From a virus, in IMG/VR virus record IMGVR_UViG_3300001533_000599, positions 1-35,106 of that record: 35,106 nt of DNA. The stretch is one strand, 5' to 3'. Each line of letters opens with the position of its first letter. The stretch's first letter is position 1. Both the position numbers and the translations under genes were made by a program. Of this stretch, positions 1 through 35,106 are shown one piece after another. The notes below the pieces were generated by a model. The model saw only the letters and a program-made list of their open reading frames with translations, had not been told where the DNA came from and ran no database searches.

Positions 1-96
1 TGAACTAAAACCGGATAAAAGAGCAATTGCCGATGTTTTAAAATCCGGCGGTGCTATTTCAGGAGCTGAGCTTGAAGAGCGGCAAAACATGAGCGT
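1..96. repeat. Terminal direct repeat, left copy (circular overlap)
   Basis: Bases 1-96 are identical to 35011-35106. The same open frame (the Gp157-like gene) passes through both copies without interruption, so this is best read as the overlap of a circular or circularly permuted assembly rather than a biological terminal repeat. Confidence 0.9.
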
Positions 97-103
97 AGGA
101 TAA
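1..103 (+). CDS. 3' end of Gp157-like protein (continues from 34619)
   Basis: This is the last 33 codons and stop of the gene that starts at 34619. The reading frame enters at base 2 and ends with TAA at 101-103. Joined across the circle the gene is 164 residues long. The fragment corresponds to the C-terminal part of the siphovirus Gp157 family. No start codon belongs to this piece; it is split only because the circular sequence was opened here. Confidence 0.85.
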   Translation, partial: ELKPDKRAIADVLKSGGAISGAELEERQNMSVG

Positions 104-106
104 AAA

Positions 107-244
107 ATGCAAATTATAACACCGTATACGCCTTGTACTGATCCGGAGTATATAAGAAAAGACGTTGTTGAAATACAATCATTTTTAATTTTTCTGTGTT
201 GTGAAAAAAGCAATACAGAAAATCTTGACTTTGCAAGCCGTTAG
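107..244 (+). CDS. Small hypothetical protein, 45 aa
   Basis: An ATG four bases after the stop of the Gp157-like gene opens a 45-codon frame ending in TAG. A weak Shine-Dalgarno (AGGA at 96-99) lies about 7 bases upstream. The product has a hydrophobic centre (SFLIFLCC) and a CC pair, but no recognised family. Its position as the last frame of the early operon that starts at 30281 makes translation plausible. A promoter for the next operon overlaps its 3' end, which may be its only real role. Confidence 0.35.
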   Translation: MQIITPYTPCTDPEYIRKDVVEIQSFLIFLCCEKSNTENLDFASR

Positions 245-253
245 TATTAAGAT
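225..253 (+). promoter_or_regulatory. Sigma70-like promoter upstream of the ParB-methyltransferase gene
   Basis: TTGACT (225-230), a 17-base spacer and TAAGAT (248-253) match the sigma70 pattern with one mismatch in the -35 and two in the -10. The expected start, about 259-261, falls just before the first arm of the structured leader at 264, so the RNA would begin with that structure. Confidence 0.5.
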
Positions 254-263
254 TGGGATACCC

Positions 264-373
264 GTTCGCGCGGAAAAGGAAAATATAGCCCCAACCTGAA
301 GAGGGTTCTACTGAGTGCAAAACTCTCCTTTCCTCCCTGCGCGAACTTCAGGGCGGGGCTTTTTATATTCTAA
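264..373 (+). promoter_or_regulatory. Structured leader L1 with terminator-like hairpin and short leader frame
   Basis: Stem A pairs 264-273 with 337-346 (one G-U) and continues with 277-282 pairing 329-334. Stem B pairs 288-301 with 346-359 (12 of 14 pairs) and is followed by T360-T364, like an intrinsic terminator. A and B cross, so they form either a pseudoknot or alternatives. A short frame starts at CTG 311, preceded by an AGAGGG Shine-Dalgarno. It begins LSAK, carries RAG near its end and stops at TAA 371-373, which overlaps the AAGGAGG ribosome site of the gene at 388. This could be an attenuator or a small RNA plus terminator. The pairing is seen; the function is inferred. Confidence 0.5.
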
Positions 374-387
374 GGAGGCTGTACAAT

Positions 388-1794
388 ATGCAGTTAAAAA
401 AGTGGGAAATAACGGAAACGTGCGTACCTCCGTTAGCAAGCTATGAACGGGAAAGCCTAAAAAATAGCATCCAGGAACACGGGCAACAGATACCTATCAA
501 GGTGCTACCGGATGGGCGTATCATTGACGGTCATCACAGATACGCTATTTTAGGCGATACCGTAAAATATGAAGTTGTAGATATTGACGAGGCTACCGCT
601 ATAGTACTAGCGCAATCCCTCAACATGGATAGGCGGCAACTAAGCGGGGAGCAGATCCGCGAAATAAGGGAACGGCAGAAATCGCAAGCAATTAAGCTAA
701 GAGGGCAAGGGAAAACGCAGGCAGAAGCGGCGAAGGCTGTAGGCGTTGCGCAGAACACGCTTAGCGGATGGGAAAAAGAACAACAGGGAAATATCACTAA
801 TGCAACAGGTTGCAATACTGATAATAATACCACAGAAGAAACGGATACAACTAATATCGCAGATGATAATAGTTGTATAGATAAAAAACTATCTAGTAAC
901 GATTGCAGGGTTAAAATATCCAAAAGCGAATACCCTAAAATATATGCTATGTACAAGGGTGGTATGACTCAGCAACAGATAGCAGACGAAGTAAAAGCAA
1001 CTCAGCAAGCTATCGCTAAAATAATATGTATCGAAAAGAATCGGGAGGAAAAAGAAGAATCTAAAAAAAAGGCTAAGCAAGCCGAAGAATCTAAAATTAA
1101 AGATCAGGAAATTATTGTTAAGCCTGGCCAAGTATGGAAGTTAGGAAAGCACTTTTTATACTGCGCGGATATAGACAGTATTGATATTAGCACGCTTGGA
1201 GTAACCGCAGTTATTACAGACCCGCCTTATGGCATACAGTATAAACCAGACTGGAAAAAGTGGGACGGTAGCGAATCGGATTTTAAAGAAATAAAAAATG
1301 ATGATAAAATTATTGATTGCTCTAGGTATTTAGAATATGAAACGGTGTTGCTTTTCGGTGCTGAAAATTATTTACCTAATATCTCCGGGGGGTGGTTAGT
1401 ATGGGATAAAAGGCTTGACGAAAAAAAAGATAATATGATCGGATCGCCTTTTGAAATGGCGTGGTATAAAAGCCGGTCAACAGATAGAAAAAAAATAATG
1501 ATTAGAGTACTGCATGGCGGCGTTATTAATGATGATTCTAAAAACGGCAATAATGAAAAGAGAATACATACAACTCAAAAGCCTGTTAGACTTTTTACGG
1601 AAATACTAGAGCGCATCACTGAAAAGAACGATGTTATTCTCGACCCTTTTTCAGGCGGTGGTACTACTCTAATAGCCGCAGAGATAACCGGAAGGAAATG
1701 TATTGCAGTAGAGATAGAGCCGGAATACTGTAAGTTTATAATAGACCGCTATGTTTCAACATATAAAACGGAGGCTATTTTATGGCAGGAATAG
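388..1794 (+). CDS. ParB-like domain fused to DNA methyltransferase
   Basis: The 468-residue protein joins a ParB/Srx-type N-terminal domain to an amino-methyltransferase. The ParB signature IIDGHHRY is at residues 45-52. A helix-turn-helix-like segment lies near 108-130 and another near 190-212, followed by a charged linker. The catalytic part begins near residue 245. DPPY, the N4-cytosine/N6-adenine methylase motif, is at 278-281 and the SAM-binding motif DPFSGGGTT at 419-427. Motif IV precedes motif I, the beta-class order. HTTQKP at 394-399 is typical of these enzymes. The start is set by AAGGAGG 9 bases upstream. The gene overlaps the next by 13 bases. It probably methylates phage or host DNA at a site chosen by the HTH parts; the target base is unknown. 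Confidence 0.88.
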   Translation: MQLKKWEITETCVPPLASYERESLKNSIQEHGQQIPIKVLPDGRIIDGHHRYAILGDTVKYEVVDIDEATAIVLAQSLNMDRRQLSGEQIREIRERQKSQAIKLRGQGKTQAEAAKAVGVAQNTLSGWEKEQQGNITNATGCNTDNNTTEETDTTNIADDNSCIDKKLSSNDCRVKISKSEYPKIYAMYKGGMTQQQIADEVKATQQAIAKIICIEKNREEKEESKKKAKQAEESKIKDQEIIVKPGQVWKLGKHFLYCADIDSIDISTLGVTAVITDPPYGIQYKPDWKKWDGSESDFKEIKNDDKIIDCSRYLEYETVLLFGAENYLPNISGGWLVWDKRLDEKKDNMIGSPFEMAWYKSRSTDRKKIMIRVLHGGVINDDSKNGNNEKRIHTTQKPVRLFTEILERITEKNDVILDPFSGGGTTLIAAEITGRKCIAVEIEPEYCKFIIDRYVSTYKTEAILWQE

Positions 1795-2327
1795 AGCGGA
1801 TAAAAATTATATCCGGATGGAATGACAGCAATATAAAAAAGAGCATGGCGGGTGAACCATTTACAAATTCTGTATATTTTACTGAATTTGAAAGGGTTGG
1901 AATGCCGCTTTTAAATAATGAAGTTGTAAACACGGAAGTAAGCAAGGATGGTCTAAAGGCGCGGTATGACTTTCAAGAGGGTATAGATATAATACTCACA
2001 TTTAAGGATCATACTAGAGCTACGCTTCAAGAAAAAATATTGGATACTAAGTATGATACGGCAACATTTGAGGAATATAAAAAAAATGGTGAGCTTGGTG
2101 ATTGGTATAGATGCACAGCTCAATTATATTTTGTTGGGTATCTCTCAGAAAATTGGCAAAGCTTAAGATGCGGTATGATGTTCAACCTTGCCGAAGTGCG
2201 GCGGCTTAGTATGAACAATAAAATAAAGTGGACCATCAGAGATACTAAGTATCTAAACAGAAATACTGGCTTTAGATTTTTTTATTTTAATGATATACCA
2301 GAGAGTGCGGTAATTTTTAGATTTTAA
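1782..2327 (+). CDS. Hypothetical protein, possible PD-(D/E)xK-like nuclease
   Basis: The 181-residue product is not matched to a family with certainty. It overlaps the methyltransferase gene by 13 bases and has its own site (ACGGAGG), so the two are made together. D69 in EGIDI, followed about 14 residues later by LQEK (83-85 Q-E-K), resembles the D...(D/E/Q)xK core of PD-(D/E)xK nucleases. The run AQLYFVGY at 113-120 resembles a later strand-helix in such folds. No signal peptide or membrane segment is visible. If it is a nuclease, pairing with a methyltransferase would suggest a phage-borne restriction-modification-like unit. That role is inference from three residues and context. Confidence 0.6.
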   Translation: MAGIERIKIISGWNDSNIKKSMAGEPFTNSVYFTEFERVGMPLLNNEVVNTEVSKDGLKARYDFQEGIDIILTFKDHTRATLQEKILDTKYDTATFEEYKKNGELGDWYRCTAQLYFVGYLSENWQSLRCGMMFNLAEVRRLSMNNKIKWTIRDTKYLNRNTGFRFFYFNDIPESAVIFRF

Positions 2328-2349
2328 ATTTTGACGAGGAGTAATCAAT

Positions 2350-2466
2350 ATGTGTATATTTTCAAAGTATCTAAAACCTCTTGATACTCAAAGGGTAAAC
2401 GAGCGGGGAGTTATGACCTTGGCGCGTTTACTTTTTACCCCACCTAATCGCGGACAATTATCTTGA
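2350..2466 (+). CDS. Small hypothetical protein, 38 aa
   Basis: An ATG preceded by GAGGAG opens 38 codons ending in TGA. The product is basic and not recognised. A hairpin followed by five T residues lies inside the frame (2395-2436), so this could be a translated leader or a fortuitous frame in a terminator region. The good ribosome site is the main support. Confidence 0.4.
   Translation: MCIFSKYLKPLDTQRVNERGVMTLARLLFTPPNRGQLS
2395..2436 (+). terminator. Possible intrinsic terminator
   Basis: GTAAACG (2395-2401) pairs with CGTTTAC (2425-2431) and is followed by TTTTT. The loop is long (23 bases) and the stem AT-rich, so strength is doubtful. An alternative pairing of GGGTAAA with TTTACCC (2434-2440) exists. 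It sits between the methyltransferase pair and the next promoter, a sensible place to stop. Confidence 0.4.
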
Positions 2467-2490
2467 CTTATCGGAGCAATGATGTATATT
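2463..2490 (+). promoter_or_regulatory. Promoter with palindrome over the -10
   Basis: TTGACT (2463-2468), a 16-base spacer and TATATT (2485-2490) form a plausible sigma70 promoter for the genes from 2624. An inverted repeat at 2479-2498, ATGATG then CATCAT with 8 bases between, covers the -10. This is where a repressor dimer could bind. Confidence 0.5.
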
Positions 2491-2498
2491 TGCATCAT
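2479..2498. promoter_or_regulatory. Candidate operator palindrome
   Basis: The 20-base sequence has perfect 6-base outer arms (ATGATG/CATCAT) and near-symmetry inside. It lies across the -10 element and likely transcription start of the 2463 promoter. No repressor gene was recognised in the genome; the binding protein could come from the host or be one of the ParB/HTH proteins. Confidence 0.35.
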
Positions 2499-2631
2499 GG
2501 ACAAACGGCAAAACCATAAAATGAACTTTACCCGCTATCCCGATGTCATAGGCTTGCCGGCCTGTCCAGCATCCTTGCCGGCCTGTCCAGCATCGGGGGC
2601 GGGGTTTTATTTGGAGGCAGGGAATGGTTGA
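2497..2631 (+). promoter_or_regulatory. Structured leader L2 with short leader frame
   Basis: Stem pairs 2531-2535 with 2599-2603 and 2539-2545 with 2591-2597, then TTTT at 2605-2608, just before the GGAGG of the gene at 2624. A 44-codon frame starts at ATG 2497, runs through the hairpin and ribosome site, and ends at TGA 2629-2631 inside the next gene. Near its end it reads GAGF, like the short frame at 2851 (RAGF). The end of this leader and that of L4 (2851-2894) align almost base for base. Candidate attenuator or small RNA; function inferred. Confidence 0.45.
2553..2594 (+). repeat. Perfect 21-bp tandem duplication
   Basis: Two adjacent identical 21-base copies (2553-2573 and 2574-2594) each contain the palindrome GCCGGC. 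In the leader frame each encodes LPACPAS. They lie in the loop of the L2 hairpin and the second copy supplies part of its 3' arm (CATC), so copy number would alter the structure without breaking the frame. Confidence 0.9.
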
Positions 2632-2854
2632 TTTAGAAAAATTAGAAGAAATTTTACAATCATACGCTGATACATCAGAATATTTTAATATTTTATTGTA
2701 TCATTTAAAAGAGTATGAAAAATTGAAACAGCATTTAGAAGATAATACACTATGTGAAAGTTGTATATATAAAAATAGATGTATTCCGCAGTATAGATAC
2801 GGAGTAGCTGCATTAACATGTAATCAGTATAAAAAAAGGAAAGATAAAAAATGA
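2624..2854 (+). CDS. Small Cys-containing hypothetical protein, 76 aa
   Basis: The start follows GGAGG by 8 bases. The N-terminal half is acidic and helical. The C-terminal half carries the pattern CESCIYKNRCIP and a later C in LTCNQY, a four-cysteine arrangement that could bind zinc, as in small phage zinc-finger proteins. The tail is strongly basic (KKRKDKK). It is the first gene after the 2463 promoter and lies directly upstream of the replication initiator-like gene. No specific family is recognised. Confidence 0.75.
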   Translation: MVDLEKLEEILQSYADTSEYFNILLYHLKEYEKLKQHLEDNTLCESCIYKNRCIPQYRYGVAALTCNQYKKRKDKK

Positions 2855-2901
2855 GTACAAAATCGAGGGCGGGTTTTTTATTGGAGGCACGGAATGAGTA
2901 A
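2851..2901 (+). promoter_or_regulatory. Leader L4: mini-ORF MSTKSRAGFLLEARNE and shared G/T motif
   Basis: A 16-codon frame starts at ATG 2851, overlapping the stop of the preceding gene (ATGA), and ends 8 bases inside the gene at 2894. It contains GGGCGGG followed by six T and the ribosome site TTGGAGG, closely matching the end of L2. There is no pairing arm upstream, so it is a hairpin-less version. It may couple translation between the two genes. Confidence 0.4.
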
Positions 2902-3676
2902 TGCAAAAAAATACTACTGGCTGAAATTGAAAAATGATTTTTTCATGTCCAGAGAAATAAAGAAATTGCGCTCTGTAGCAGGGGGCGATACGTTTACAAT
3001 TATTTATCTGAAAATGCAATTATTAAGTCTGAAAGATTCTGGAGCTATACATTATGAGGGTACTGAAGACAGTATAGCAGAGCAGCTTGCTATTGAGTTG
3101 GATGAGGAACAAGCAAACGTTTCACTAACATTGTCTTTTTTGCAAAAAAACAAACTGCTGGAAATAATTTCAGAAACTGAATATCTGTTAAACAGAGTAC
3201 CTGAAAGTATCGGCAAAGAGACAGCAGCTGCGGAGCGAATGAGAAAGAAGCGTTTGCGTAACAATGTTACACAGCAGTTACCGCATGTTACAAATAGTTA
3301 CACAGAGATAGAGATAGAGATAGAGAAAGAGAAAGAGATAGAGAAAGAGAAAGAGAAAAAAAAGAATATGCCTGCCGGCACCCCAACAAAACAAATAGAA
3401 TCATTATGGCAGCAACAATACAAGCATCATACCGGCATACCGTATCACGATACCGGAGCTGACAGGGCAATGGCGAAAAAACTCGGTATTTGGGAGCGAT
3501 ACACTTTTGAGCAGCTGGAGTCATTAGTACTGTTATATTGGCTTGCACGGAAAAATCTTGATGGCACGGAGGAGCAGAAATATTACCCGCCTTTATTGCG
3601 CAGCTTTTACAAGGCGATACCCAGATTGGCACAGCATGAAAAAAAATCTAATAAGGAAATATTGGAGTCTTTATAA
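2894..3676 (+). CDS. Phage replisome organizer-like protein
   Basis: The 260-residue product opens with YYWLKLKNDFFMSREIKKLR and continues GGDTFTIIYLKMQLLSL, the pattern of the phage replisome organizer N-terminal domain, a winged helix that binds the origin. After about residue 135 a low-complexity E/I/K linker, encoded by a 6-base repeat, leads to a C-terminal domain (about 157-260) that would recruit helicase or loader. The DnaC-like loader at 5893 is the likely partner. GGAGG precedes the start by 8 bases. The gene ends with TAATG, sharing a base with the next gene. Its own coding sequence may contain the origin, as in many phages; no clear iterons were seen. Confidence 0.8.
   Translation: MSNAKKYYWLKLKNDFFMSREIKKLRSVAGGDTFTIIYLKMQLLSLKDSGAIHYEGTEDSIAEQLAIELDEEQANVSLTLSFLQKNKLLEIISETEYLLNRVPESIGKETAAAERMRKKRLRNNVTQQLPHVTNSYTEIEIEIEKEKEIEKEKEKKKNMPAGTPTKQIESLWQQQYKHHTGIPYHDTGADRAMAKKLGIWERYTFEQLESLVLLYWLARKNLDGTEEQKYYPPLLRSFYKAIPRLAQHEKKSNKEILESL
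3305..3358 (+). repeat. In-frame 6-bp microsatellite (GAGATA/GAGAAA), 9 units
   Basis: Nine hexanucleotides, either GAGATA or GAGAAA, follow one another and encode alternating E-I and E-K dipeptides. Because the unit is two codons, gain or loss of copies changes linker length in the replisome organizer but keeps the frame. Confidence 0.95.
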
Positions 3677-4473
3677 TGTCGGATATAGCAAAGCGAAAAA
3701 CAATTGAAGAAATGTATGCAAAGAAAATCTGGATGTTGAATCAAATTGAAAAAATATATGATTTGCATAAAGAACTTGACCGCTGCTTTGAAGATTTTAA
3801 CGGGTATTCACCGGCGAGGATTGACTGGAAGTATGATAATTTCGAGAAAGACCGTGAGGAAAAATATATTGACCGTACAATGTGGTTTTACCTGGTCAAT
3901 TTATTTTCTCTTGAAAAATATATGCTCTGTACAGATTATGCAAAAATGCAGAAAGATGTTACTGATTTCAAAACTCCAAAGTTTACTATTGAAAATGCAA
4001 ATGGGTGGCTGGAAGGCTTAAAACAATTGATTTTTGAGAATGTGAAAACAATGGTGAAAGATGTTTATAAACGCATTACAAATGATGTATATTTTACCGG
4101 TTCAGGGTATGCAAACAAGAAAAAGAAAAAGCGCAACAATGCCGGGATTGATACGAATTTTATAATCACAACGTATGATTATTCCCGTGTTTTTTCGTAC
4201 TGGAATAACAATCCAACAATTACGGATGATCTTGAAAAGGTGTGCTATATTCTGGATGGAAAAACGTTGCCTGATACAACGATTATACAGGAAATGAAAC
4301 AAGAAGATTTATCAACACATAAGAATGATTATTTCACTGTAAAGTTATGCCAGAACGGGAACACTCACTATAAGCTGACAGATGAAACCAGAGACCGGCT
4401 TAATTTATGCGGGCCTGCCGGGGCAGTGATTGGTGAAAATATCAAGATAAAAGTTTTTGAAAGTTTACATTGA
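3676..4473 (+). CDS. DUF4942-like protein
   Basis: The 265-residue protein resembles the DUF4942 family, which occurs alone or fused to phage DNA methyltransferases. Characteristic stretches are WKYDNFEKDRE near residue 52 and MWFYLVNLFSLEKYM near 69. An N-terminal helical part is followed by an alpha/beta part with a basic KKKKKR stretch near 149. The family's role is unknown; its link to methylases suggests DNA modification or anti-restriction. Start and preceding stop overlap (TAATG). It is the last gene before the 4470 promoter. Confidence 0.65.
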   Translation: MSDIAKRKTIEEMYAKKIWMLNQIEKIYDLHKELDRCFEDFNGYSPARIDWKYDNFEKDREEKYIDRTMWFYLVNLFSLEKYMLCTDYAKMQKDVTDFKTPKFTIENANGWLEGLKQLIFENVKTMVKDVYKRITNDVYFTGSGYANKKKKKRNNAGIDTNFIITTYDYSRVFSYWNNNPTITDDLEKVCYILDGKTLPDTTIIQEMKQEDLSTHKNDYFTVKLCQNGNTHYKLTDETRDRLNLCGPAGAVIGENIKIKVFESLH

Positions 4474-4498
4474 AAAATCATTGAGGAAGGTGTATATT
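4470..4498 (+). promoter_or_regulatory. Sigma70-like promoter upstream of second ParB-like gene
   Basis: TTGAAA (4470-4475), a 17-base spacer and TATATT (4493-4498). The spacer end AAGGTG before TATA is shared with the promoter at 7796. The predicted start, about 4504-4506, coincides with the ATG of the leader frame at 4505, so that frame could be leaderless. Confidence 0.55.
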
Positions 4499-4504
4499 TT
4501 AAAC

Positions 4505-4606
4505 ATGAGTACAAAACGCAAAAAATCAAAACAGCATAGAACCCGCTTAAAGCGTACAAAGGTATTTGCGTGCCTGTACTCCGCTTTTTGCGGGTTTTAT
4601 ATTTAG
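4505..4606 (+). promoter_or_regulatory. Structured leader L3 with 33-codon leader frame
   Basis: Pairs: 4540-4546 with 4590-4596, then 4549-4554 with 4582-4587, with an inner hairpin within 4555-4579, followed by TTTTATATTT. This looks like a strong intrinsic terminator placed immediately before the AGGAGG of the gene at 4615. A frame starting MSTKRKKSKQHR at 4505 runs through it and stops at TAG 4604-4606, which overlaps the Shine-Dalgarno. Its start matches the MSTK of L4 and its end (CGFYI) recalls L2. Possible premature-termination control or small RNA of about 95 bases. Confidence 0.55.
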
Positions 4607-4614
4607 GAGGGATT

Positions 4615-5442
4615 ATGTACGAAAAGCATGAATTAAACACAGTACCAAAACTTTCCGAGCATGACTATAGTGCACTGAAAGACAGTATTAAGCGGCATGG
4701 GTATTTATCGGAGTTTGGAACAATTGTTTTGTACGAAGACAAAATACTTGACGGTTGGCATCGGTATAAAGTTTGCGAGGAACTCGGCATTGAGCCGGAA
4801 ATATCAGATTTTACAGGCGGCTATGAAGAGGCTATCTATTTTGTTATTGCAGCAATAAGCAGACGGCATTTACCGGACTTTGCAAAATACGAGGCGCTCT
4901 CAGGGTTGCGGGAAAAACTCAAAAAGCAAGGGAACGAGAAGCAAAAAGAAACGCTAGGCGGCTATAAACACAATGAGTCAGTTTTATCAAATACTGATAA
5001 AACTGATACTCATAATACACAAAAAAAACTATCCGAAGAACTTGGCTGGAGTACCGGAAAGACCGCACAGGCAGATTACATAGACAAACACGCCGATGAA
5101 AAAGCAAAGGAAAAGCTAAGGAGCGGTGAAAAATCAATAAACAAAGTATACGAAGAAATAAGGCATAGCAGCGCAACCGGCAAGCAGGTTAAAGAAAGAG
5201 TAAAAAACATAACAGCAGAAATTGAAGAAGAAATACGATTAAACAAGATAAAAAAACTTGAAGAACGCCCTGCATATATAAGGGCTGTTGATCTTGTTAG
5301 TGTATGCAGTGGGATAGAAGAAGCAATAGAACTTTGTCTTGAAGCTTTCCCGTTAGAAAATAGGTTATCTGATATAACAACTGCAATAAAATATTTGCGT
5401 ACATTAAGTGTAAAAATTCAAAGGAGAAACTCTAATGGATGA
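4615..5442 (+). CDS. ParB-like N-terminal domain protein
   Basis: The 275-residue protein has the ParB/Srx signature ILDGWHRY at residues 44-51. An HTH-like segment at about 138-165 (LSEELGWSTGKTAQ) and a charged helical C-terminal region follow. It lacks the methyltransferase half found in the gene at 388, so it is a DNA-binding relative of that protein's first half. No ParA is present, so plasmid partition is not supported; a role in transcription or replication control is more likely. The start is chosen at AGGAGG plus 6 bases; an in-frame upstream ATG at 4570 lies inside the leader hairpin and is rejected. Confidence 0.75.
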   Translation: MYEKHELNTVPKLSEHDYSALKDSIKRHGYLSEFGTIVLYEDKILDGWHRYKVCEELGIEPEISDFTGGYEEAIYFVIAAISRRHLPDFAKYEALSGLREKLKKQGNEKQKETLGGYKHNESVLSNTDKTDTHNTQKKLSEELGWSTGKTAQADYIDKHADEKAKEKLRSGEKSINKVYEEIRHSSATGKQVKERVKNITAEIEEEIRLNKIKKLEERPAYIRAVDLVSVCSGIEEAIELCLEAFPLENRLSDITTAIKYLRTLSVKIQRRNSNG

Positions 5443-5878
5443 GAAATATTTACAGGCAATGAGTAATACTACTCAATTAATTGAAGCTAATTTATCGGTA
5501 ATAAAAGAACTCAAGGAACTTGTTTCTGAATATGCTGAAAAGGCAAAAGCCTATGATATGCTTGATGCAAAAGAGCAATGTTTAAGCATGAGCCAGGCTG
5601 GCAGTAAAATAAAAGAAGTGCTTGGTTTAAAGAAAATGAGTAGTCAGATGCTTATAAAACTTTTGTGTGATTGGGGCGATATGAGAAAAATACATAGTGG
5701 TTATCAAGCATACGAAAAAAATGTAGAGGCAGGGCATTATAAAAATGTTAGTAAATCTACAGATGCGGGATATATTGTACACGCTGTAAAGGTATCAGCT
5801 CCTAAAGGTTTATCTTATATTGTTAAAAAAATGCAAAAACAAAAAGAAAAACTTTCAGGATTGATTGAATATAAATAA
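5435..5878 (+). CDS. KilAC-domain (antirepressor C-terminal type) protein
   Basis: The 147-residue protein is mostly a KilAC/ANT domain. Residues 38-60 (KAYDMLDAKEQCLSMSQAG) and the later GHYKNV and PKGLSYIVKKM segments match the C-terminal domain of phage antirepressors. The usual N-terminal BRO or Rha DNA-binding domain is missing; a short coiled-coil-like N-terminus takes its place. AAAGGAG precedes the start and it overlaps the previous gene by 8 bases. In temperate phages such proteins oppose a repressor; no repressor gene is seen here. Confidence 0.75.
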   Translation: MDEKYLQAMSNTTQLIEANLSVIKELKELVSEYAEKAKAYDMLDAKEQCLSMSQAGSKIKEVLGLKKMSSQMLIKLLCDWGDMRKIHSGYQAYEKNVEAGHYKNVSKSTDAGYIVHAVKVSAPKGLSYIVKKMQKQKEKLSGLIEYK

Positions 5879-5892
5879 TAATTGGAGGCATT

Positions 5893-6531
5893 ATGCAAGT
5901 GATTGAAGAAGGTTTTCCGATTGAGATTGATGTAAAGGATTTTTATTTTGAAACAAGCGACGAGGAAACCATTTCAGAATATGACAGGGAACTGGAAAGG
6001 CGCATGTTGCAAAGGGAAATTGAATTGACAGAGTATGGGCTTAATTGTCCGGAATGGTTTAAGCTGGAAACGTTTAAGCCCGCCGAAAAAATTCCTGAAA
6101 TAATACCTGAAAAAAACTATCTAATAACCGGACAACCAAATGAAGGGAAAACACACTTGGCTTGTGGGATAGCAAGAAAATTGACAGCAGATGGACACGG
6201 TGTTGCAGAAAGGATATTTGAACCAGAGTTTGCAGAGTTCTACAAAATGCACATAGGCCGATATACAAATGACCTCAAAAATTACATTCAGAAAATAACA
6301 AGAGCCGATATTTTGCTGTGGGATGACATGTGCAGGACATTTTCGATGTATCCCGATGTAAAAAACAGCCTGCTAAACATCTTCAATAAGCGGGCTGAAA
6401 AACGGTTGCAAACAATAGTTACGTGCCAGTTTGGATATGATGAGATAGTTAGACAGTTTGGACAGGATTTTCTGCGGCGGGTTATACGCAAAGAAGGCAA
6501 AAAAGAAAATCATATTGAAGTATGCCTGTAA
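5893..6531 (+). CDS. DnaC-like helicase loader ATPase
   Basis: The 212-residue AAA+ protein has Walker A GQPNEGKT at 80-87, Walker B ILLWDD at 140-145, a sensor-like TIVTCQF at 174-180 and an arginine pair near 195. It lacks a zinc-binding N-terminus but has an acidic one. By family it loads the replicative helicase on phage origins. TTGGAGG precedes the start. No helicase gene was recognised, so it probably captures the host DnaB, with the replisome organizer at 2894 marking the origin. Confidence 0.85.
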   Translation: MQVIEEGFPIEIDVKDFYFETSDEETISEYDRELERRMLQREIELTEYGLNCPEWFKLETFKPAEKIPEIIPEKNYLITGQPNEGKTHLACGIARKLTADGHGVAERIFEPEFAEFYKMHIGRYTNDLKNYIQKITRADILLWDDMCRTFSMYPDVKNSLLNIFNKRAEKRLQTIVTCQFGYDEIVRQFGQDFLRRVIRKEGKKENHIEVCL

Positions 6532-6849: not shown

Positions 6850-6871
6850 TGCCCTATGCACAGATAGGGCA
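6850..6871 (+). other. Perfect 8-bp hairpin before the gene at 6891
   Basis: TGCCCTAT (6850-6857) pairs with ATAGGGCA (6864-6871) around a 6-base loop, 9 bases before the GGAGG of the next gene. It lacks a T run. The arm sequence recalls the hairpin at 7828-7876. The rest of the 106-base gap (6785-6890) contains a weaker CTGTG/CACAG inverted repeat and no gene. Confidence 0.6.
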
Positions 6872-6890
6872 TTAAAACAGGAGGCAGTGA

Positions 6891-7067
6891 ATGACTAAAA
6901 AAGAACTTGAATTAAAATACATAAAATTACAGTGTTGCGCTAACTGTGATTTTTGCAGCATAAAAAAAATGTTTTTTAATTGGTATTCTTTTTCATGCAA
7001 AAAAAAGGAAAAATCATGCAATCCTGCATGGTGGTGTATAAACTATAAAAACACATGGCCATTTTGA
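6891..7067 (+). CDS. Small Cys-rich protein, 58 aa
   Basis: ACAGGAGG lies 6 bases before the ATG. Seven cysteines in 58 residues (CCANCDFC, then three more) and a Trp-rich tail suggest a zinc-binding mini-protein. No family is named. It is one of four Cys-rich small genes in the early region (2624, 6891, 7081, 7899). Confidence 0.65.
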   Translation: MTKKELELKYIKLQCCANCDFCSIKKMFFNWYSFSCKKKEKSCNPAWWCINYKNTWPF

Positions 7068-7795: not shown

Positions 7796-7824
7796 TTGAC
7801 AATGAATTAAAAAAGGTGTATACT
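7796..7824 (+). promoter_or_regulatory. Near-consensus sigma70 promoter
   Basis: TTGACA (7796-7801), a 17-base spacer and TATACT (7819-7824). The expected start near 7831 is the first G of the hairpin below. It would drive the small genes from 7899 and probably the packaging genes after them. Confidence 0.8.
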
Positions 7825-7827
7825 AAT

Positions 7828-7876
7828 TAAGGGCACGCTTCGTTTTACCTCCATGTTTTCGGAGCCTCTGCCCTTA
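7828..7876 (+). promoter_or_regulatory. Hairpin leader at the 5' end of the 7796 transcript
   Basis: TAAGGGCA (7828-7835) pairs with TGCCCTTA (7869-7876). Inside, CTCC (7849-7852) pairs with GGAG (7861-7864). The loop side contains ACCTCC, complementary to Shine-Dalgarno sequences, next to an ATG. The structure ends 10 bases before the AGGGGG site of the gene at 7899. A 5' stabilising or regulatory stem-loop is likely. Confidence 0.5.
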
Positions 7877-7898
7877 CTACAAAACAGGGGGCAAAAAT

Positions 7899-8003
7899 AT
7901 GCCAGAAATAGCCGCACTTTGTAAAACCTGCAAACATAATTGTAAGCAGTCCGCAGAAATGCATGTAGTAAATTGCCCGATGTACTTAAAAGATGACAAT
8001 TAG
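7899..8003 (+). CDS. Four-cysteine mini-protein, 34 aa
   Basis: ATG follows AGGGGG by 7 bases. The pattern CKTCKHNCKQ and a later NCPMY gives four cysteines in 34 residues, typical of small phage proteins likely to bind a metal. It is the first frame under the 7796 promoter. Confidence 0.6.
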   Translation: MPEIAALCKTCKHNCKQSAEMHVVNCPMYLKDDN

Positions 8004-33014: not shown

Positions 33015-33595
33015 AAAATCCAGCTATTAAACAGCTAAAAAAAATGCAGGCATGTAAAAAGGGGATTGAATGGTTTAAAAAAAACAAAAAAAGCACATTA
33101 GAAGAAACTATTTTGTATGCAGATTATGAAGGGTTGGGATATGCGAACTGGTATATTGCGCATAGTTTTAATTCTGATAATAAAGTTAGATATGCGATAT
33201 ATGCGGCTGAAAAAGTCCTACATATATATGAGGAGAATTATCAAAATGACAAACGCCCGCAGGATGCTATTAAAGCTGCAAAAAAGTGGATTAAAAATTC
33301 GACAAAGAAAAACAGTTTAGCGGCTTATGCGGCTTATGCGGCGGCTTCTGCGGCGGCTTATGCGGCGGCTTCTGCGGCGGCTTCTGCGGCTTCTGCGGCT
33401 TCTGCGGCTTATGCGGCTTATGCGGCGGCTTCTGCGGCTTATGCGGCGGCTTCTGCGGCTTCTGCGGCTTATGCGGCGGCTTCTGCGGCGGCTTATGCGG
33501 CGGCTTCTGTGGCTGATGTGGCTTATGCGGCAAAAGAAAAAACACTAAGAAATATTGTAAATTATGGTCTTGAATTACTGGAGACTAGAAAATGA
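33011..33595 (+). CDS. Imm-5-like protein with long alanine-rich repeat
   Basis: The 194-residue product has an N-terminal part (VRYAIYAAEKVLHIYEENY followed by DKRPQDAIKAAKKWI, residues 59-94) like the Imm-5-like putative immunity proteins. A 71-residue tract of Ala with Tyr or Ser every third or fourth residue (104-174) and a short C-terminal helix follow. Family members often carry such tracts. The function is not established; the immunity name comes from toxin loci. GAGGAG precedes the start. DNA of the tract is an in-frame minisatellite. Confidence 0.65.
   Translation: MKNPAIKQLKKMQACKKGIEWFKKNKKSTLEETILYADYEGLGYANWYIAHSFNSDNKVRYAIYAAEKVLHIYEENYQNDKRPQDAIKAAKKWIKNSTKKNSLAAYAAYAAASAAAYAAASAAASAASAASAAYAAYAAASAAYAAASAASAAYAAASAAAYAAASVADVAYAAKEKTLRNIVNYGLELLETRK
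33320..33532 (+). repeat. In-frame GCGGCTTMT(GCG) minisatellite
   Basis: The 213-base tract is made almost entirely of the codons GCG, GCT, TAT and TCT in 9- or 12-base units. Length can change in whole units without a frameshift. Strong base bias (no A except in TAT) sets it apart from the AT-leaning surroundings. Confidence 0.95.
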
Positions 33596-33882
33596 CATCA
33601 AAAGATTATCACAATTTAATGCGTGAAAAATCAATACAAAAAAACGGCTTTGTTTGTTTGAATTGTGGGAAGACCGCCGAAGGATTGGCGCACGGAATAC
33701 CTCAAAGAAAACCGGAGCTTGCTGAGTACGGCTGGCGGGTTGTGCATCACTGGAGCAATCTTTACCCTGCCTGCAATTCCTGCAATGCTGGCTTTCAAAA
33801 AAAACAGTATGAGTATTTAGAATATGCAAGTGAAATAATGGAAAAGATAATTGAAGAAGATGGCGAAAAAATACATGGATGA
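33592..33882 (+). CDS. HNH-like zinc protein
   Basis: The 96-residue product has two CxxC pairs (C22/C25 and C61/C64) and an HNH-like core: AHGIP (H34), VHHW (H52/H53) and NLYPACNSCN (N56, N65). HNH nucleases cut DNA, and phage copies often help packaging or replication. Some catalytic positions are unusual, so activity is uncertain. ATGA coupling links it to the previous gene. Confidence 0.7.
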   Translation: MTSKDYHNLMREKSIQKNGFVCLNCGKTAEGLAHGIPQRKPELAEYGWRVVHHWSNLYPACNSCNAGFQKKQYEYLEYASEIMEKIIEEDGEKIHG

Positions 33883-33893
33883 AAGGGTGGCAA

Positions 33894-34526
33894 ATGAAAT
33901 ATATAACAAAAAAAGAGTTAGGGGTATTGAGGATAATATGTACCGAAACGATTCCGGGTATTGTAGATGTTGGGCAGGAGGGGGGATTGATAAACAATGA
34001 AGATAATTTGTCGCAAATAGGAAAGTGTTGGATTTCCGGCAATGCCCGGATTTTCGGCGATGCCCAGATTTTCGGCGATGCACAGATTTCCGGCAATGCA
34101 CAGATTTTCGGCGATGCACAGATTTTCGGCGATGCATGGATTTCCGACGATGCACAGATTTCCGGCGATGCATGGATTTCCGGCGATGCCCAGATTTTCG
34201 GCGATGCACAGATTTTCGGCGATGCATGGATTTCCGACAGTGCACAGATTTCCGGCAATGCACAGATTTCCGGCGATGCGTGGGTAAAAAAATCGACAGA
34301 ATATATGACTATTGGCCCACTCGGTTCAAGAAATGCAGATACAACTTTTTATATCGACTATAAACATGATATATGCGTTACATGCGGGTGCTTTTCTGAT
34401 AGTATTATTATGTTCAAAAAATACGTGATGAATAAGTACTCAAAAAACAGCATTTACGGGATACAGTATCTTGCCGCAATCCAATGCGCAAAAACAATAT
34501 TATCAATAGGAGAAAACAATGACTAA
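33894..34526 (+). CDS. Hexapeptide-repeat beta-helix protein
   Basis: The 210-residue protein has 14 hexapeptides of the type (W/Q/R)-I-(S/F)-(G/D)-(N/D/S)-A at residues 46-129, which predict a left-handed beta-helix as in YdcK-like or polymer-forming proteins. The flanks are a short helical N-terminus and a mixed C-terminus (IGPLGSRNADTTFYIDYKHD). AAGGGTGG precedes ATG 33894; ATG 33879 is an alternative. It may be a scaffold or an inhibitor; the role is unknown. Confidence 0.7.
   Translation: MKYITKKELGVLRIICTETIPGIVDVGQEGGLINNEDNLSQIGKCWISGNARIFGDAQIFGDAQISGNAQIFGDAQIFGDAWISDDAQISGDAWISGDAQIFGDAQIFGDAWISDSAQISGNAQISGDAWVKKSTEYMTIGPLGSRNADTTFYIDYKHDICVTCGCFSDSIIMFKKYVMNKYSKNSIYGIQYLAAIQCAKTILSIGENND
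34029..34280 (+). repeat. Fourteen 18-bp coding repeats
   Basis: The unit is close to GGCGATGCACAGATTTYC, with variants at the W/Q and S/F codons. Each unit is six codons, one coil edge of a beta-helix. Near-identity at the DNA level suggests recent expansion or gene conversion. Confidence 0.95.
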
Positions 34527-34618: not shown

Positions 34619-35106
34619 ATGAAACTGTATGAAATCACAAACCAGTACCAAGAATTACAAGACAAAATTATCCAGACTGCGCAGGATAACGGCGGTGAAA
34701 TACCCGCGGAGCTTATTGACGAGCTAAACGCATTACAGGACACTAAAGAAGAAAAGCTCCGCGCATGCTGCTGTATGTATAAAAACACAATAGCCGACGC
34801 GGACGCAATCGATGCAGAAATAAAACGCCTGCAATCACGAAAGGCAAGCGCGCAAAATCATGCGAATTGGTTGCTTGATTATATCCGGAATAATATACCG
34901 GCAGGTGAAAAACATGAATGGCCTGAAGCCGTGATAAAATGGCGAAAAAGCACGGCGGTCAATATTCTTGACGTGGAAAAAATCCCTGAAGGATATGTGC
35001 AGAAAATCGTTGAACTAAAACCGGATAAAAGAGCAATTGCCGATGTTTTAAAATCCGGCGGTGCTATTTCAGGAGCTGAGCTTGAAGAGCGGCAAAACAT
35101 GAGCGT
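34619..35106 (+). CDS. Gp157-like protein (5' part; ends at 103 across the join)
   Basis: The gene starts at ATG 34619 after AGGAGG. Its helical N-terminus (YEITNQYQELQDKIIQTAQD) and later NHANWLLDYI-type segment with WRKSTAVNI fit the siphovirus Gp157 family, early proteins linked to recombination and, in one streptococcal phage study, to phage resistance. Across the join the protein is 164 residues. Its place after annealing protein and SSB supports a recombination role. Confidence 0.8.
   Translation, partial: MKLYEITNQYQELQDKIIQTAQDNGGEIPAELIDELNALQDTKEEKLRACCCMYKNTIADADAIDAEIKRLQSRKASAQNHANWLLDYIRNNIPAGEKHEWPEAVIKWRKSTAVNILDVEKIPEGYVQKIVELKPDKRAIADVLKSGGAISGAELEERQNMS
35011..35106. repeat. 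Terminal direct repeat, right copy
   Basis: Identical to bases 1-96. It marks the overlap that closes the circle at about 35,010 bp. Confidence 0.9.

Follow-up and report, generated by a model that had tools for sequence, protein, structure and literature searches.

Three paralogous phage leaders with predicted interleaved helices as probable transcription attenuators

Directly before four early genes of the IMG/VR virus record IMGVR_UViG_3300001533_000599 (35,106 bases, all of which we analysed and call the window), starting at 388, 2624, 2894 and 4615, lies a common sequence block, which raises the question of what these leaders do. A preliminary description of the locus had suggested premature-termination control or a set of small RNAs of 95-125 nucleotides (nt). 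We find that three of the leaders are full paralogous copies in which two complementary pairs of arms interleave; they are very probably folded RNAs, and an attenuator function is probable from their sequence. Our analysis leans toward a specific form of this reading, in which each of the three would be a transcription attenuator that yields an RNA of ~100 nt and passes transcription on to its gene by readthrough.

The shared block and the leaders that carry it

The block, described earlier as GCGGG, a T run and GGAGG, was confirmed: the pattern GCGGGN{0,2}TTTN{3,14}GGAGG occurs four times in the 35-kb window (353-378, 2599-2617, 2869-2887 and 4590-4610), each time directly 5' of one of the four genes, against a mean of 0.03 occurrences in 100 shuffles, none of which reached four. 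The four leaders had been taken as equal members of one family; instead, they comprise three full copies and a stub, the remnant before gene 2894. The promoters proposed upstream of the three full leaders were recovered as hexamer pairs in a consensus scan, each only a candidate because the first 6 kb are richer in promoter-like matches than their shuffles (32 versus 17.4). Transcript starts were predicted at 260, 2497 and 4505 by a single rule, 7 nt after the -10 element. In the features below, A5 and A3 are complementary arms forming helix A, and B5 and B3 are the arms of the terminator stem, B.

225-253, plus strand: candidate promoter of leader 1, TTGACT-17-TAAGAT (9/12 in the consensus scan; a match, not proof)
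2463-2490, plus strand: candidate promoter of leader 2, TTGACT-16-TATATT (10/12)
4470-4498, plus strand: candidate promoter of leader 4, TTGAAA-17-TATATT (10/12)
260-366, plus strand: leader 1, predicted transcript; A5 264-282, B5 287-301, A3 329-346, B3 346-360, T run 360-364
2497-2610, plus strand: leader 2, predicted transcript; A5 2498-2511, B5 2531-2545, A3 2554-2568 and 2575-2589, B3 2591-2605, T run 2605-2608
4505-4606, plus strand: leader 4, predicted transcript; A5 4507-4522 (extends to 4527), B5 4540-4554, A3 4565-4581, B3 4582-4596, T run 4595-4598
2851-2887, plus strand: leader 3, a remnant; A5 stub followed by GCGGG, a T run and GGAGG resembling those of leader 2, with no hairpin and no nearby promoter

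The three full leaders (260-366, 2497-2610 and 4505-4606) are homologous. Leaders 2 and 4, which had been called near copies over about 35 bases, prove to be homologous from end to end, with indels between them, and the near-copy block of ~35-58 bases (76% over 58 nt) instead joins the leaders of genes 2624 and 2894. The loops of leader 1 are not conserved relative to those of leaders 2 and 4. Leader 2 carries an exact 21-nt tandem duplication, CTTGCCGGCCTGTCCAGCATC (2553-2573/2574-2594, region 2553-2594), which doubles the A3 arm and leaves two identical A3 copies.

The open frames beginning MSTK at 2851 and 4505 exist as described, and they have in common the 12 bases ATGAGTACAAAA, which form both the first bases of the remnant and the start of leader 4, and which are present only twice in the window. 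The 3' part of the remnant nearly repeats the last part of leader 2. The leader of gene 2894 combines the 5' stub of one leader and the 3' end of a second; the sequence that lay between them, and both helices with it, has been lost.

In the full leaders the distance from the T run to the start codon is 19-29 nt, which leaves no room for a promoter, so that the gene must be reached through the predicted terminator, either from the leader's own promoter or from upstream. By prediction, an intrinsic terminator (B and the T run) therefore stands between promoter and gene with no promoter behind it, as in an attenuator. The earlier proposal of termination control or small RNAs is partly supported by this anatomy (promoter, structured RNA, terminator, no room for a second promoter).

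Two predicted, interleaved helices in each leader

The terminator-like hairpins of the preliminary description are present in all three full leaders, but they are longer than described. Each B stem consists of ~6 pairs, a small internal loop and a further 6-7 pairs, closing a large loop (27-45 nt). A plain hairpin search recovers only two of the stems, in short versions, and does not detect the one at 360. The 3' part of this terminator loop, adjoining B3, is the A3 arm, and it is complementary to A5, which starts 1-4 nt after the predicted transcript start. This second pairing, made inside the terminator loop, was absent from the preliminary description. The elements follow the order A5-B5-A3-B3-T run in all three full leaders, an arrangement that, if both helices form, is that of a pseudoknot or a sequential fold.

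With the transcript start placed 7 nt after the -10 element, shuffles equalled the A5:A3 pairing in 23/2000 cases for leader 1, 15/2000 for leader 2 and 4/2000 for leader 4; leaders 2 and 4 keep their significance with a longer 5' segment. We scanned both strands of the whole window for a B stem beside a T run with an A3 arm directly adjoining B3, and the three leaders were the top three matches on the plus strand, the strongest match on the minus strand being the complement of leader 1. A third-best match as good was seen in 0/300 shuffled windows. Addition of a promoter before A5 left exactly the three leaders, compared with a mean of 0.18 for the shuffled strand and at least three matches in 1/300 shuffles. 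The same scan on other loci (several hundred kb, partly overlapping) gave promoter-linked matches whose helices were ragged and which were no stronger than about -34 kcal/mol, as against -35 to -44 kcal/mol for the three leaders. An earlier scan for a single helix had not separated the leaders from shuffles.

Each leader pairs best with itself: the energies of pairing between a leader's own arms are -18 to -24 kcal/mol for A and -22 to -24 kcal/mol for B, and pairing between arms of different leaders is weaker (-4 to -10 and -8 to -17 kcal/mol, respectively). Minimum-energy folding of all three leaders gives helix A for the RNA that precedes B3 and helix B for the full RNA. Since A and B overlap by at most one base, the conflict between them is topological and not a competition for bases. 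In leader 1 the nested foldings are near balance (-33.8 versus -35.5 kcal/mol at 96 and 102 nt).

The arms also differ between paralogues in a way that keeps the pairing. In an alignment of leaders 2 and 4 that is in register (one copy of the leader 2 duplication omitted), both leaders retain 12 of the 13 A pairs, and 4 pairs are changed on both sides with pairing kept; when the partner columns are slid by 1-3, the double changes fall to 0-1. For B, aligned by hand (CCCGATG/CATCGGG in leader 2, AAAGCG/CGCTTT in leader 4), 5/6 inner pairs are doubly changed with pairing kept. R1, a covariance model of leaders 2 and 4, was run over 310 kb and ranked leader 1 third (17.3 bits, E 0.25) and the remnant fourth (E 0.44).

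Compensatory changes in homologues, and a covariance model searched in related phages, had been proposed earlier as checks on the leaders. The changes, whose absence was to have counted as a refutation, are present among the paralogues, and R1 does rank leader 1 behind its own two members, but that match has the modest E-value given above, R1 found nothing convincing in 15 phage records, and true homologues outside this genome were not found in the collections searched. IMG/VR hunts with proteins P0001, P0002, P0003 and P0005, the terminase and the major head protein, a comparison of protein alignment A1 with genome contigs, and a search with P0001, P0002, P0003 and the terminase among 393 genomes of the phylum of a Spirochaetia relative all returned relatives of single proteins only. 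A leader pattern search of IMG/VR had no match, and no such leader lies beside the DUF4942 gene in the five relatives whose neighbourhood was read (L003, L006, L007, L008 and L010). Rfam 15 had no match in the window at gathering thresholds; at E-values up to 5 over positions 1-6000, it gave a single chance-level match outside the leaders. A single R1 match in the 393 genomes (29.6 bits, E 0.0048 per genome, ~2 expected overall) was rejected, as it has three broken A pairs and no terminator.

Taken as a mechanism, these features would work as follows. Each leader would be transcribed into a short RNA from its own promoter, and, as the RNA emerges, its first bases (A5) would pair with A3, enclosing B5 in the loop. 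A few bases further on, B3 would emerge beside A3 and pair with B5, such that a pseudoknot forms or A is displaced. RNA polymerase would then halt at the T run, giving an RNA of ~100 nt with both ends held in helices, and the downstream gene would be expressed by readthrough only, at a level open to any factor that might set the switch. Helix A may delay the terminator, help it, or merely protect the 5' end, roles alike compatible with the sequence. Along the genome, the leaders would act as serial attenuators that partition the replication and methyltransferase region.

The phage record and the genes behind the leaders

The record is a virus whose bases 1-96 are identical to bases 35011-35106, and it is therefore probably a complete circular assembly of ~35,010 bp. 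Its genes include those of a tailed phage (tail sheath, portal, head protease, major head protein and terminase). DNA related to the first 6 kb was not found in the phage collection, relatives elsewhere being those of single proteins, and the host signal is inconsistent, with relatives of different proteins pointing to different hosts. The genes behind the leaders, and one further leader of similar plan, are the following.

388-1794, plus strand: gene behind leader 1; ParB-like N-terminus, helix-turn-helix and N6/N4 DNA methyltransferase (Pfam PF01555, PHROGs)
2624-2854, plus strand: gene behind leader 2; cysteine-containing protein of 76 amino acids, no family
2894-3676, plus strand: gene behind the remnant (leader 3); replisome organiser (PF09681, phrog_5968)
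4615-5442, plus strand: gene behind leader 4; ParB-like protein (phrog_12047, E 9e-9; phrog_4715; no match in Pfam)
7796-7905: further leader with a candidate promoter, TTGACA-17-TATACT (11/12), followed by a hairpin

The 76-amino-acid protein has zero matches in Pfam, PHROGs, PADLOC and NCBIfam, the four family collections searched. Two of the four downstream genes (388 and 4615) are ParB-like, as had been described, and nothing found here ties the ParB-like proteins to the leaders. Positions 3676-4473 encode a DUF4942 protein. Its relatives (43-55% identity) are carried by IMG/VR contigs and by a Spirochaetia genome, with no leaders alongside.

The last feature in the list resembles the leaders in plan but has no terminator, and it is not counted in the family. 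It forms a strong two-part hairpin at its predicted start (z -4.3, as stable in 0/200 shuffles) and precedes a short frame at 7899 (34 codons, by eye). The hairpin loop contains CCTCC, the likely ribosome site is AGGGGG, and the 3' arm could also pair with that site, so that this leader could act on translation as a possible translational switch.

Elsewhere in the window, a plain hairpin (6850-6892, GCCCTAT/ATAGGGC) lies immediately 5' of the ribosome site of a small gene at ~6892, and hairpins resembling it also precede genes in phage contig L010. A run of GCGGCTTATGCGGCGGCTTCT-type repeats at 33300-33530 lies within a frame and encodes an alanine-rich stretch, and GATTTTCGGCGATGCACA-type tandem repeats at 34030-34290 lie within the gene at 33879, which matches phrog_7964.

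Weighing attenuation against other explanations

Several points weigh against attenuation by these leaders. The promoter calls are consensus matches, and the host signal is inconsistent. The A result depends on the start chosen, such that with a longer 5' segment the pairing in leader 1 is no longer significant (999/2000 shuffles), and the 4-nt connector between A5 and B5 in leader 1, longer in leaders 2 and 4, would leave a complete pseudoknot strained. A shuffle control on the A pairs (29/500) is only moderate, because two sequences hold little information. The scan descriptor was designed with the leaders already seen, albeit with general thresholds, and the covariation comes from three paralogues, homologues being confined to this genome in the collections searched. 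Because the structures derive from the same sequences used in the test, the compensatory changes and the R1 ranking count as support and not as proof. Finally, an open frame crosses each leader, so that translation could control the terminator instead.

Such control by a leader peptide, which we judge unlikely but keep as a serious alternative, would have ribosomes initiate at an ATG with which leaders 2 and 4 are predicted to begin. They would then traverse the leader, block folding of the terminator and halt where the ribosome site of the gene lies. In leaders 2 and 4 the frames (2497-2631 and 4505-4606) are indeed open and terminate in the start region of the gene or at its ribosome site, the remnant has kept its frame (2851-2901), and leader 1 is likewise crossed, as the preliminary description had reported. 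However, the ATGs have no preceding ribosome site, leader 1 offers no ATG, GTG or TTG start in its frame, an open frame also arises in 38% and 15% of the shuffles of leaders 2 and 4, and indels leave these two leaders in the same codon phase in only 9/100 aligned columns, so that a conserved leader peptide seems doubtful. Rather unlikely, too, is that the RNA itself is the product, the three leaders being discrete, structured small RNAs of the phage with a protein partner or a function in trans; the downstream gene would share their promoter at a low level, in the manner of type III toxin-antitoxin and AbiF loci. The promoter and T run would delimit such an RNA, with its 5' end at helix A, the gene order is that of those loci, and every leader pairs with itself only; against this, the downstream proteins differ from one another, none matches a toxin or AbiF family in the four collections, and the loops of leader 1 are not those of the other two.

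That the leaders are ordinary intergenic terminators of upstream genes, lying near unrelated promoters and duplicated by recombination, with the A pairing due to chance, seems quite unlikely to us. The modest A statistics of single leaders would fit this, as would the plain hairpins just 5' of ribosome sites in L010, a phage with a related gene, whereas the threefold coincidence of order, promoter position and T run, together with the paired double changes in A, speaks against it. It is extremely improbable that the repeats work at the DNA level, for instance by binding the ParB-like or replisome proteins of the phage or by serving as their replication sites: 3/4 of the genes behind the blocks encode ParB-like or replication proteins, but the arm sequences differ among copies that nevertheless retain their pairing, as would suit a folded single strand and not a site read by its sequence.

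Returning to attenuation, comparison with known systems bears on what kind of leader this would be. In classical attenuators and transcription-terminating riboswitches, a helix that forms early is followed by a terminator before the gene, and the antiterminator has bases in common with the terminator. The leaders described here have the same early helix and subsequent terminator, but their A and B helices have at most one base in common, and they show neither a conserved ligand core nor an Rfam match. Compared by description, the put antiterminator RNAs of phage HK022 resemble the present leaders as structured phage leader RNAs that act in cis on early-gene transcription, and differ in suppressing terminators further downstream.

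In the AbiF non-coding RNA RCd22 of the C. difficile prophage phi027, most transcription ends at a terminator before the gene (PMC12373285). The likeness extends to a promoter, an RNA of ~100-130 nt, an intrinsic terminator, a gene reached via readthrough and a phage-borne locus, but RCd22 has two abiF motifs and one AbiF protein, whereas here three copies precede different genes and a long helix closes on the first bases of the RNA; an Abi_2/AbiF protein behind the leaders was not recognised in the four collections. Type III toxin-antitoxin loci (ToxIN, CptIN, TenpIN; PMC5086642) likewise have a single promoter, a pseudoknotted RNA and a Rho-independent terminator before a gene, an order also found here (promoter and terminator by prediction). 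Their antitoxins, however, consist of short tandem repeats, each a pseudoknot, with a separate terminator and an adjacent gene for an endoribonuclease toxin. In the leaders, the terminator stem is one of the two helices, the 21-nt duplication is confined to leader 2 with none in leaders 1 and 4, and no endoribonuclease toxin gene was recognised directly downstream in the same collections, the 76-amino-acid protein having no match of any kind. Because no toxin or AbiF gene is recognised downstream, the leaders belong to neither group, and their predicted working comes closest to that of an attenuator, if one with an unusual helix. A limited check of the open-access literature found no description of such a leader.

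Tentatively, the leaders may represent an attenuator type of their own, possible but doubtful as it stands, in which the 5' end of the transcript folds onto the loop of the forthcoming terminator, termination is set by the topology and timing of two helices with almost no common bases, and the output of successive genes is set by several copies, each private and not pairing with the others. Should helix A control termination, the leaders would be attenuators based on topology and not on base competition, present as naturally independent copies in one genome; they would offer an experimental system for co-transcriptional folding of pseudoknots, as well as ready-made insulated RNA parts. If instead the RNAs themselves matter, they would form a small family of end-protected phage RNAs beside replication genes.

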